Shown piece after piece: positions 6,979-11,124 of a DNA stretch of 64,000 bases; within the stretch, counting starts at the first letter, position 1, and each line of letters begins with the position of its first letter. Where the stretch lies: assembly GCF_032163395.1 (NCBI RefSeq), contig NZ_CP119968.1, positions 2,155,501-2,219,500 of the forward strand, given 5' to 3'. Source of the stretch: Gloeocapsopsis dulcis. GTDB lineage: Bacteria > Cyanobacteriota > Cyanobacteriia > Cyanobacteriales > Chroococcidiopsidaceae. The notes under the pieces were generated by a model, which worked only from the letters and a program-made list of their open reading frames with translations, searched no databases and was not told the origin of the DNA. A program made the translations under genes and the position numbers.

Positions 6979-7765
6979 ATGAACTCAATTTCTGATTGCT
7001 TCAAGTCGCTGCGATCGCGCGGTGCTTGTGCTTTAATTCCCTTCGTGACTGCTGGCGATCCAGACTTGGAGACAACGGCTGAAGCTTTGCGGGTTTTAGA
7101 TGCTGCTGGAGCAGATATCATTGAACTCGGAGTACCGTACTCCGATCCGTTAGCAGATGGGCCTGTGATTCAAGCCGCAGCAAGTCGGGCACTACAAAAA
7201 GGAACGCGCCTTGAACAAGTTTTGGAAATCGTGCGCGAGGTAAGTCCTACACTGCGATCGCCAATTGTTTTATTTATGTATTACAACCCGATTTTGAATC
7301 GGGGAATTGAGACATTTTTACAGCAAATTGTGGATGCTGGTGTCGCTGGTTTAGTTGTGCCTGATTTGCCACTAGAAGAAGCTGAAGGGCTGCTGAAACC
7401 CGCTCAAGAGGTAGGGATTGAAGTTATATTATTAGTCGCTCCAACCAGTTCCCCAGAAAGGATTGAAGCGATCGCCCGTGCTTCGCAGGGATTTATTTAT
7501 TTAGTCAGTGTGACTGGCGTTACCGGAATGCGATCGCAAATGGAGGCGCGAGTACCTGAACTACTTAAACAAATACGTAGTTACACCGACAAACCCATTG
7601 GTGTCGGTTTTGGCATTTCTGCCCCCGAACAAGCGCGACAAGTACGTGAATTGGGTGCAGACGCCGTGATTGTTGGAAGTGCGATTGTCAAACGCTTAGC
7701 AGACGGAACTCCCCAAACAGGATTGCAAGCAATTGGGGAGTTTTGCCAAAGTTTAAGGGCGGCAA

Positions 7766-7776
<11 letters not shown>
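6979..7776 (+). CDS. trpA: Tryptophan synthase alpha chain
   Basis: The 265-aa product has all TrpA landmarks: the general-base Glu in [17 protein letters not shown] (about residue 47), [21 protein letters not shown] and the phosphate-binding GVGFGIS. It cleaves indole-3-glycerol phosphate to indole and glyceraldehyde-3-phosphate and passes indole to TrpB. It follows DUF3007 by 43 bp and is probably in the same transcript. Its last 11 bp overlap the convergent aldo/keto reductase gene. Confidence 0.97.
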
Positions 7777-8746
<970 letters not shown>

Positions 8747-8871
8747 TTTGCTCCTTGATTAGTTTCAACGTATTTGCGGGAGTCCCCACGTTCAGCAGCG
8801 CGGCGTGGGGAGGTAGAGCGGGTTGGCGGAGGTACGGAGCCAACCAGTAATCTGTGATATAATTTATACAT

Positions 8872-9155
8872 GCTGAAATGTTCTAAAGGCACTCGTTTTA
8901 CCCGCGAGCAACGGTTGTAGCAGTAGGCAAGTATCTGGTGCATAGATGCGTAACTGGGTAATGGGGCACTCCGAGAGGATAAACTCGGTGAAGAAAAAAT
9001 ACTTGGAGTCCAGCATCTTGTATGCTGGTGGGAACTCAAGATGTAACCGTGCCTGGAGGTTCGGAAAGCAATCTGTCTGTTGGTGTCCATCAGCATCGGC
9101 GTTGTGAGTACAGGGCTACTGAAAGCCACAAGCTCAGCCGTTAGGCGGCTTGGAG
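8872..9155 (+). ncRNA. HEARO / omega RNA (IscB/IsrB-type), orphan copy
   Basis: This stretch resembles HEARO RNA, the guide (omega) RNA of IscB/IsrB elements. Features are stacked hairpins and the 3' block TGAAAGCCACAAGCTC followed by AGCC/GGC and AAGC/GCTT pairings (about 9119-9151). Visible stems include CCGAG/CTCGG (8971-8975/8984-8988) and CCAGCAT/ATGCTGG (9010-9016/9022-9028), the latter enclosed by CTTGGAGT/AACTCAAG. About 285 nt fits the family. In full elements the iscB or isrB reading frame follows directly; here a truncated host gene follows on the other strand, so this is a solo RNA. Identity rests on remembered family features, and the ends are approximate. Confidence 0.6.
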
Positions 9156-9239
9156 TAGGTTACTAACTCGTTCACCTTGTTCGCCATCAATTTCCTTTAG
9201 TTTTGCCCAACCGCTTTCATATCGGGTTTTTCCATTCAC
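9141..9239 (-). pseudogene. 5' fragment of a carboxymuconolactone decarboxylase-family gene
   Basis: Directly after merR, a GTG at 9239 overlaps the merR stop (GTGA) and opens a frame beginning VNGKTRYESGWAKLKEIDG. This is the usual N-terminus of carboxymuconolactone decarboxylase-like proteins. After about 28 codons it runs into the HEARO-like RNA and ends at a TAA near 9143. The remainder, including the catalytic Cys-His region, is absent from the window. It was presumably the middle gene of a merR-cmd-akr operon. Confidence 0.6.
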
Positions 9240-9649
9240 AGGTTTCTCCTTGTTTGCTCATTTTGGACAATAGCGGCGCGATCGCTTTGTTGTGCTTCCA
9301 ACTCCTGATAGTGTTGAATTTTCCACTGAATCACCTTCAAGTTCTGCTGAAGTTCTGCGATACGCTTTTGAACCTCAAGTTCATGCGCTTCTAGAATTGC
9401 GCGGCGATCGCCGATTGCTTCTGGTTTTTCCCGTAACAAGGTAGCGAACTGCTGCATTTGACGAATTGGCATTCCTGTAGCCCGTAATCGAGTCAAAAAT
9501 TCAATCCGAGCAATATCTGCTGCTGAGTAACGGCGATGCCCATTGCTTCCCCTATTAACTGGCTCAAGTAGCCCATTGCGCTCGTAATAGCGCAGTGTAT
9601 GCACACTCAAACCCGTTCGCGCTGCAACTTGTCGAATGTCTGTGTCCAT
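9236..9649 (-). CDS. MerR family transcriptional regulator
   Basis: The 137-aa product has a MerR winged helix (VAARTGLSVHTLRYYERNGLL) and a C-terminal dimerising coiled coil (about residues 75-125). It has no Cys, so thiol or metal sensing by the protein itself is unlikely; it groups by appearance with AdhR/NmlR-like aldehyde regulators. I place the start at the ATG at 9649, because a GTG at 9658 would overlap the promoter -10 element. It probably controls itself and the downstream cmd fragment and aldo/keto reductase. It is divergent from an MFS exporter. Confidence 0.88.
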   Translation of the reverse strand: MDTDIRQVAARTGLSVHTLRYYERNGLLEPVNRGSNGHRRYSAADIARIEFLTRLRATGMPIRQMQQFATLLREKPEAIGDRRAILEAHELEVQKRIAELQQNLKVIQWKIQHYQELEAQQSDRAAIVQNEQTRRNL

Positions 9650-9656
9650 GAATATC

Positions 9657-9687
9657 ACCTTAGAACTTAGAGCGCACTCTAAGTCAA
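9657..9687 (-). promoter_or_regulatory. MerR-type promoter with long spacer and operator palindrome
   Basis: On the minus strand TTGACT (9687-9682) and TAAGGT (9662-9657) are separated by 19 bp, the abnormal spacing typical of MerR-activated promoters. The spacer region carries a perfect inverted repeat ACTTAGAG-N4-CTCTAAGT (9665-9684). Transcription would begin around 9650, that is at or next to the merR ATG. Confidence 0.8.
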
Positions 9688-9852
9688 GCCTTTTTCAGAA
9701 AAAATTGAAAGCGCAGTAACGCGCAATTACAGACTAACGATGACTTGTACAATATACGCGGGTAATGCAAAAATTGCATAGCAGTGCTAAATCATATCGA
9801 AGACACGCTAGCTAGCGCAGCCCAAAAACTACCCGTAGCTTAAAGGAAGATT

Positions 9853-11124
9853 ATGGCTGACCCTAGGGTTCATGTAGAAGAAGCAAACCGGAAACAAAGG
9901 CTAAAGCAACATCATCGCTTGTTTTTATGGCTTTCTCTCGCCGCAGGCTTGATTTTTTTACAGGGATATATGATTGCACCACTTATCCCTCGTCTAGCAC
10001 AAATTTTTCAAGTTCCAGAGCAAGAAATTGGCTTTATTGTCCCAGCATATATGCTTGCTTATGCACTGGCAGCCCTCTTTTACGGAATCCTTTCGGATCG
10101 TTTCGGTCGCTGGCCTGTGATGCGTGCTTCGGTCTGCATCTTCATTATCTGTACAGCACTTACTGCAACAGCCCAATCTGCCTCACAGATGGTTCTCTGG
10201 CGTCTTTTAACTGGGCTAGGTGCTAGTGGGGTCATACCACTGACGTTTGCTTTGATTGGAGATTTATTTCCCTTTCGCGAACGAGGACAGATGCTGGGTA
10301 TGGTATTTGCTTATATGGAGGGTGGCATGGCTTTCGGCTCTGCGGGTGGAGCGATTCTTGAACCCTTTATAGGCTGGCAGGTACTATTTATTGGTACATC
10401 TGTTGCAGCAGCTATCGTTCTGTGGCGCTTGCATCGTTATGCAGCACTGTTCGATACTCCACAGGCTGCTGAGCCACTACGCTCGATTCGTCAGGTTTTT
10501 GCAGGCTACCGCAGTGTTCTGTCAACTTGGCGCGGAAAGCGGACTTACATCTATGTCTTTTTAAACGCAATCTTTCACTCAGGGGTTTATACCTGGCTAG
10601 GACTTTACTTGTCGCAGCGCTACAACTTGGGAGAGGCTAGAATCGGGCTAGCAATTTTTGGATACGGCATTCCAGGTTTAATTTTTAGTCCGATGATTGG
10701 CAGAGCGGTGGATCGTTGGGGACGCAAATGGCTTATCCCACCAGGACTTGGCATAGCTGCTATAGCAGGGTTTATGATGATCTTCCAGATTCCCTTGACC
10801 TTGACTACTACTGCTATTCTGATTTTGTCTCTTGGCTATGACCTCACTCAACCTTTGTTTGCAGGAATTGTGACAGATCTAGGTTCCGTAAGAAGTCTAG
10901 GGCAAACGATGGGGTTCAAAGTGTTTACGCTATTCACTGGATTTGGAATTGGTAGCCTCATATTTGGTGAGGCGCTTCGTTGGGGCTTTGGTCCGACGCT
11001 GGCTATATTTAGTACAATGCAATTGCTGGCAGCGGTTGCCGCAATTCCTTTATTCCGCTCCGAGACTCCTAAGAAAGAGGCAGAAATTAAAGCAGTAGAA
11101 GCTTGGGATGAACAAGAGGAATAG
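9853..11124 (+). CDS. MFS transporter (drug:proton antiporter-like)
   Basis: The 423-aa product has 12 predicted membrane helices and the MFS motif-A loop GILSDRFGRWPVM between helices 2 and 3, with a degenerate repeat GRAVDRWGRKW in the second half. This points to DHA1-type efflux. The N-terminal 24 residues are basic and cytoplasmic. It is divergent from the MerR gene, 203 bp apart. Control by that MerR is possible but not shown: the palindrome reads towards merR. Substrate unknown. Confidence 0.88.
   Translation: MADPRVHVEEANRKQRLKQHHRLFLWLSLAAGLIFLQGYMIAPLIPRLAQIFQVPEQEIGFIVPAYMLAYALAALFYGILSDRFGRWPVMRASVCIFIICTALTATAQSASQMVLWRLLTGLGASGVIPLTFALIGDLFPFRERGQMLGMVFAYMEGGMAFGSAGGAILEPFIGWQVLFIGTSVAAAIVLWRLHRYAALFDTPQAAEPLRSIRQVFAGYRSVLSTWRGKRTYIYVFLNAIFHSGVYTWLGLYLSQRYNLGEARIGLAIFGYGIPGLIFSPMIGRAVDRWGRKWLIPPGLGIAAIAGFMMIFQIPLTLTTTAILILSLGYDLTQPLFAGIVTDLGSVRSLGQTMGFKVFTLFTGFGIGSLIFGEALRWGFGPTLAIFSTMQLLAAVAAIPLFRSETPKKEAEIKAVEAWDEQEE

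Follow-up and report, generated by a model that had tools for sequence, protein, structure and literature searches.

The question raised by this locus of Gloeocapsopsis dulcis is what a block of stacked hairpins without a protein gene of its own could serve for. In the window, which is the whole stretch of 64,000 nucleotides that was analyzed, the interval 8766-9163 is flanked by an aldo/keto-reductase-like ORF (7766-8746, minus strand) and a MerR-type gene (9236-9658, minus strand, MerR_1 by Pfam). A first-pass annotation read the hairpins as an orphan HEARO RNA of about 285 nt (8872-9155). The RNA is real, but its bounds had to be corrected: the structured part extends over approximately 8866-9163 and the element over roughly 8766-9163, the start being approximate. 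About 300 nt after TATAAT at 8858-8863 are without a gene-like ORF, the ORF list of the window holds no nuclease frame adjoining the RNA block, as the annotation had stated, and tnpA and tnpB are both absent inside 8766-9163. The description of stacked hairpins with a terminal sequence and GCC/GGC pairing was also correct, since TGAAAGCCACAAGCTC (9120-9135) closes the non-coding block and a GCC/GGC hairpin (9129-9152) comes after it. The folding energy of the window RNA alone is ordinary (minimum free energy z -0.45). The features of the element and its right flank are as follows.

8766-8827 (start approximate), plus strand: left end of the element with a hairpin, 8783-8790/8804-8811 (inverted repeat, 8/8)
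8858-8863, plus strand: TATAAT, likely -10 box of the RNA promoter (by eye)
8866-8961, plus strand: 5' domain with H1 (8892-8895/8905-8908), H2 (8931-8935/8945-8949) and PK1 (8898-8904 with 8955-8961) (covariation, model R1)
8964-9163, plus strand: TnpB-type omegaRNA scaffold (homology to tnpB 3' ends and covariation)
8964-8969/9049-9054, plus strand: stem 1 (covariation)
9043-9048/9158-9163, plus strand: pseudoknot PK2 (covariation)
9129-9152, plus strand: terminal hairpin of the scaffold
9158-9163, plus strand: GGTTAC, right end of the element and last scaffold nucleotides (comparison with other copies)
9164-9183, plus strand: predicted guide, i.e. flanking DNA past the right end (expected from the reRNA anatomy given in PMC8612924)
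9164-9239, minus strand: fragment resembling the N-terminus of a carboxymuconolactone decarboxylase (cmd), cut at the right end (by eye)

The HEARO identity did not hold. With permissive filters, cmscan found no Rfam family at E<=1 in 7000-11000, and a search of the whole G. dulcis genome gave no match to the HEARO model RF02033. As a positive control this model was found in 2 of 19 family genomes, one match being over the cut-off, and the matches there are clearly another RNA than that of the window. The first-pass annotation had also proposed to look for iscB/isrB elsewhere in the genome; the search with PF14239 (RRXRR, IscB/IsrB-type) found none, its built-in control giving no signal anywhere, and the model does recognize genes downstream of weak HEARO matches in two other loci (L013 and L022). 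HEARO/IscB identity was rejected on these negative searches, together with the difference between the window RNA and the true HEAROs with RRXRR-type genes in the family. Regarding the latter, the RRXRR-type gene of L013 (149-1472) has upstream a HEARO match of 31.9 bits, that is, a divergent HEARO below the Rfam cut-off, while another genome (G003) carries two HEARO copies (L023 and L024), separated by about 10 kb and each with an ORF behind it; the stretches 1501-1999 of these two look identical and their left flanks differ.

It is the 3' part of the RNA that points to its kinship. Over its last ~200 nt (8964-9163) it matches the omega/reRNA region that lies at the 3' end of the genes in one clade of tnpB, a homology first seen in L048 of the own genome and in L012 and then in most of the L048 relatives compared, which bears out the claim of an orphan omega-type guide RNA on a solo mobile element. 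The conserved motifs of the scaffold are CCTGGAGGTTC and AGGGCTACTGAAA, and the 3' ends of the L048-clade tnpB genes have CCT(G/A)GAGG(T/C)TC, AGGGCTACTGAAA, stem 1 and PK2 in common. Blocks in the tnpB genes are ordered GGGCTG..GTAAAC-CAGCCC..GAGGCTC..AGGGCTACTGAAA..hairpin..GTTTAC, and the order in solo RNAs is identical, plus an insertion between the first two blocks, whose distance is 8-11 nt in tnpB rows of the alignment vs 28-122 nt in solo rows. The stem-1 loop is 20-110 nt larger in solo copies, and in the window RNA the insertion in this loop amounts to ~70 nt relative to the tnpB copies.

Both long-range pairings of the scaffold were compared with block shuffles in 34 rows (20 solo and 14 tnpB), 26 of them distinct, the blocks having been picked by eye at constrained positions, which favors the structure. 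Stem 1 is 96.2% paired against 72.4% in the shuffles, with 31 cells altered in both partners where the shuffles give 6.8 (0/500), and PK2 95.5% against 85.6%, with 19 such cells against 4.2 (0/500), or 3 against 0.4 in solo rows alone. Variants of stem 1 include GGGCAC/GTGCCT, GGGTCG/CGACCT, GGGGTG/CACCCT and GGCGGG/CCCGCC among others, and those of PK2 are GTAACC/GGTTAC, GTAAGC/GCTTAC, GTAAAC/GTTTAC, GTAAGT/ACTTAC and GTCAAT/ATTGAC; PK2 is broken in one tnpB locus (L125). The 16 tnpB loci L116-L131 entered without L119, L130 and L131, because the matched part of these is not the C-terminus. Solo rows left out were L073 and L097 (near copies of L074 and L078), and also L077, L079, L081, L084, L085, L086, L088, L095 and L096. 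In the omegaRNA of ISDra2 TnpB, as described in PMC10097598, a pseudoknot joins the last scaffold nucleotides to -102 to -106 inside the stem-1 loop, and the topology of stem 1 and PK2 in the window is the same. The window RNA possesses homology to the tnpB 3' RNA region, a stem 1 and a guide-proximal pseudoknot, all marks of a TnpB omegaRNA/reRNA, and lacks one further mark, encoding in cis at the 3' end of tnpB. In L073 and L074 a ~70-nt AATTCTCAATTCTC/AATCAAGAATCAAGA repeat (~1595-1680) lies in the linker between 5' domain and stem 1; matches to it (query 599-676) recur at many places in the genomes of these two loci.

In front of the scaffold stands a separate 5' domain. Across eight copies 92.5% of its cells are paired vs 69.6 in shuffled alignments, 32 cells are changed on both sides vs 10.8 (0/500), 11 pairs are changed on both sides vs 7.4 (2/500) and 18 further pair types are found vs 15.1 (46/500), in an alignment padded by eye to the structure, which favors that structure. 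PK1, in which the loop of H1 is paired with GGGTAA at 8956-8961, is not included in R1, the covariance model of the first ~95 nt of the RNA, and copies found afterwards with R1 therefore test it. A loop-tail helix scoring at least 5 is present in 19 of 21 new distinct copies, compared with 4.5 when loops were shuffled and 6.7 when tails were swapped; the observed mean was reached by 0/500 shuffles. The 5' domain was seen in no tnpB element examined, and compensatory changes keep it across several genera.

Recurrence and covariation show the block to be more than chance. Of 100 related genomes, 13 (the own one and 12 of 99 others) contain matches to parts of window 8750-9200, and the pairings covary; the sequence is thus not unique, uniqueness being one of the grounds on which the first-pass annotation would have dropped its reading. 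Some of these loci share only the left end, which there stands before tnpB genes (L006, L016, L009 and L011), others the right end only, at a tnpB 3' end (L010 and L012), while the RNA itself is found without a nuclease in L002, L004, L014, L018 and L007 and partially in L003 and L005. Across 388 genomes of the order R1 has 37 matching places, which fall in 21 genomes including that of G. dulcis; six of these places (G099:C9, G099:C3, G170:C1:182005, G170:C1:4597799, G127:C43 and G204:C230) are not among the 31 loci compared. In a phylum sample 2 of 386 genomes match, namely that of G. dulcis and one other from its order. A pattern scan of genome contigs gave nine stretches, six confirmed by R1 and three from Bacteroides/Bacteroidales not confirmed; it names Scytonema sp. 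NIES-4073, a Moorena genome and Xenococcaceae genomes as carriers. The pattern was found in no viral contig (0), and plasmids gave no match. One contig (L154, JACCVJ010000447.1) is titled as a Tatlockia sp. MAG; it is identical with G017:C203, from the same family as the window genome, and the bin is probably misnamed.

No tnpB lies downstream of the 5' domain in any of the 27 copies for which 270 or more downstream bases are available, by ORF lists and by tblastn with 48 ORFs from tnpB loci, a query set that found 5/5 control tnpB loci and is not exhaustive, as it missed a TnpB seen by Pfam upstream of the L084 copy. The remaining four of the 31 copies end at a contig end (L086, L088, L095 and L096), and in L092 tblastn found a piece of tnpB ~1.2 kb upstream. 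Among R1 matches no autonomous element carrying the 5' domain plus tnpB was found. L084 was first read as such because 1.4 kb separates its two domains; this was rejected, since ORFs of helix-turn-helix and DDE_3 transposase type lie in the insert. At 1501-2950 of L084 a DDE_3 transposase element interrupts the solo element, and the TnpB gene is divergent upstream. Decay does occur in the family, as the 3' part is lost or altered in solo copies L077, L079, L081 and L085.

Subterminal hairpins are present at both ends of the element. In the own genome tnpB L048 is preceded by a left end of the same style (GCGGGAGTCC-hairpin-GGAGG), and blastn of the window left end against the own-genome tnpB loci gave no match before L048. 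Right ends in other copies are GCTTAC, GTTTAC or GGTTAC, and the exact right end is given by an empty site: in genome G059 the place that L074 occupies in G099 is unfilled, the left flank ...TCAC joining the right flank directly. The L074 element is 461 bp long (1432-1892), stands 3' of a short motif and has no target duplication, a pattern seen for this relative only. The clean empty site shows that this relative is mobile, and it is what mobility of the IS200/IS605 type leads one to expect. For the window copy, four relatives (G001, G002, G010 and G014) have both flanking genes and no element, and their intergenic DNA is too different to give a clean empty site.

The claim that a fragment similar to a cmd N-terminus stops at the edge of the element was confirmed by eye: 26 codons run on the minus strand from 9239 to 9162 into the element, a piece so short that neither Pfam nor a PDB sequence search recognized it. 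That the element destroyed a cmd gene is plausible, but the C-terminus is missing on the other side, at the left end, and in the four relatives both cmd and the element are absent at this place. In the relative G013 (L067) the space between the AKR and MerR genes shows, by eye, remnants of a cmd-like C-terminus (LPASFPAAFNGIAAVKEVFQARDAQ) and of an SDR-like sequence, which points to a cmd gene having formerly occupied this place.

With regard to expression, a promoter scan found no two-box promoter, only the TATAAT at 8858-8863, and many copies carry a TATAAT-like sequence at the same distance. The predicted guide 9164-9183 has no second genomic target at <=3 mismatches (the reversed control pattern has five matches). 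Possible protein partners reside in the genome. There are 48 matches to the TnpB zinc-ribbon family, some with stops; L048-clade TnpBs with the same omegaRNA type are L048/L116 (410-aa frame) and L146, the motif is absent from the third clade member (L147), and only 1 of 30 tnpB loci L032-L061 has it. L048 matches OrfB_IS605 and Cas12f1-like_TNB (Pfam) and aligns with solved TnpB/Cas12f over an aspartate, a glutamate and an aspartate, which we take to be the RuvC residues. Five matches to Y1 transposase (PF01797) were found, three full length and without stops, so that a Y1 transposase is available and may be regarded as a candidate mover of the element ends.

Some copies are accompanied by a gene. 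A divergent ORF resembling ribbon-helix-helix (RHH) proteins, 44-57 aa long, lies just upstream in seven copies (L007, L008, L017, L071, L077, L080 and L093), broken in L079 and, by eye, also present in the Scytonema copy; Pfam recognizes RHH_1 in L077, and L080 is without a match over the cut-off. No RHH gene accompanies the window copy. A divergent ORF of this kind is also found at three tnpB loci of the own genome (L033, L044 and L052), which lack the scaffold 3' motif. In five RHH copies a palindrome GTGTA..TACAC overlaps the promoter, and a copy such as L093 has GTGTACC-GATAT-GGTACAC at the RNA promoter. Inverted repeats scoring at least 5 at the promoter, present in 7 of 8 RHH copies (one a pseudogene) vs 10 of 22 without RHH, do not separate the two groups, and only the recurring GTGTA..TACAC form is suggestive.

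From these comparisons of sequence we consider it likely that 8766-9163 is a non-autonomous element of the IS200/IS605 type and that it yields a standalone TnpB-type guide RNA, on which a resident TnpB presumably draws in trans. As it has no protein gene and only an RNA resembling TnpB guides, it probably borrows the TnpB of other elements in the genome. The RNA would be transcribed from TATAAT at 8858, giving a guide RNA of ~300 nt plus guide in which the TnpB-type scaffold follows a pseudoknotted 5' domain; the transcript would run past the right end, the flanking DNA serving as the guide. A resident TnpB of the matching clade would bind this RNA in trans, and a resident Y1 transposase would move the element ends. 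After excision the RNA-guided TnpB would cut the empty donor site, and repair from the sister copy would restore the element, following the model set out in PMC8612924.

The same RNA could be what is left of a decayed tnpB element from which tnpB was deleted, the RNA part being a relic or a transposition end. Stops in some of the 48 tnpB-type matches, the missing cmd C-terminus beside the left end and the truncation of several copies would agree with this. A relic, however, would not retain two pseudoknots, nor does decay account for a separate 5' domain which occurs in no tnpB element here and is conserved with compensatory changes over several genera, for the recurrence of copies without tnpB in 21 of 388 genomes, or for one copy being polymorphic as a clean insertion, and we regard this explanation as rather unlikely. 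It is likewise unlikely that we are dealing with a structured RNA with another job, for example in regulating transposition or neighboring genes, which has its right end in common with tnpB elements. The 5' domain without counterpart in the ISDra2 omegaRNA, the enlarged stem-1 loop of solo copies and the divergent RHH gene in seven copies speak for such a role, but the core of an omegaRNA, namely stem 1, the guide-proximal PK2 and GGGCTACTGAAA, has been retained, as TnpB would need.

A HEARO/IscB-type omegaRNA is suggested by the length and hairpin style, and omega RNAs of IscB can occur orphaned; HEARO RNA is in this sense also a transposon-borne guide RNA which can occur without a nuclease. 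The window RNA differs from it in sequence and structure and gives no covariance-model match, although RF02033 is detectable elsewhere in the family, PF14239 is absent from the genome (with the silent control mentioned above) and the guide side and pseudoknot are of the TnpB type, the guide of HEARO RNA being at the other end. This identity is therefore very improbable.

Accepting a standalone TnpB-type guide RNA as the likely product, its closest known counterpart is the ISDra2 omegaRNA/reRNA, with which, as described in PMC8612924 and PMC10097598, it shares stem 1, the pseudoknot, the right-end hairpin and a flank-derived guide. In contrast to that RNA, it does not overlap tnpB, its stem-1 loop is larger, and it has a promoter-like box of its own and an extra pseudoknotted 5' domain of ~95 nt. 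Hairpin ends, the lack of an ORF and insertion without target duplication are characters that the window-type element has in common with non-autonomous IS200/IS605 derivatives (PATEs, MITEs), but it also has a guide RNA that is conserved and looks functional and, in some copies, a regulator gene. A conserved structured RNA first seen apart from TnpB and later tied to it is already described, in PMC11061315, for the RAGATH-18-derived reRNA of IS607 TnpB; that one lies downstream of a tnpB gene, while the window RNA is without any Rfam match. No report of standalone TnpB guide RNAs was found in literature judged mostly from titles, and a word search of PMC12558985 gave no occurrences.

More tentatively, and on the same sequence comparisons, it is possible that cyanobacteria harbor a class of protein-free or RHH-only elements, each with a guide RNA, its own promoter, a 5' domain and sometimes an RHH repressor, which would be RNA parasites hijacking TnpB in trans. 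In that case the 5' domain may be a new module for loading, stability or switching, unlike any known omegaRNA.

One warning for annotation is that cyanobacterial orphan omega-like RNAs need not be HEARO. Should the RNA act in trans, a guide RNA by itself would be enough for a mobile element to persist, and the guide would be separated from its nuclease much as in CRISPR arrays and tracrRNA genes. As for the conserved 5' domain, it may represent a natural extension by which TnpB guide RNAs are improved or regulated. TnpB is the ancestor of Cas12, and a step in the origin of Cas12 systems would, if this reading is true, become testable.
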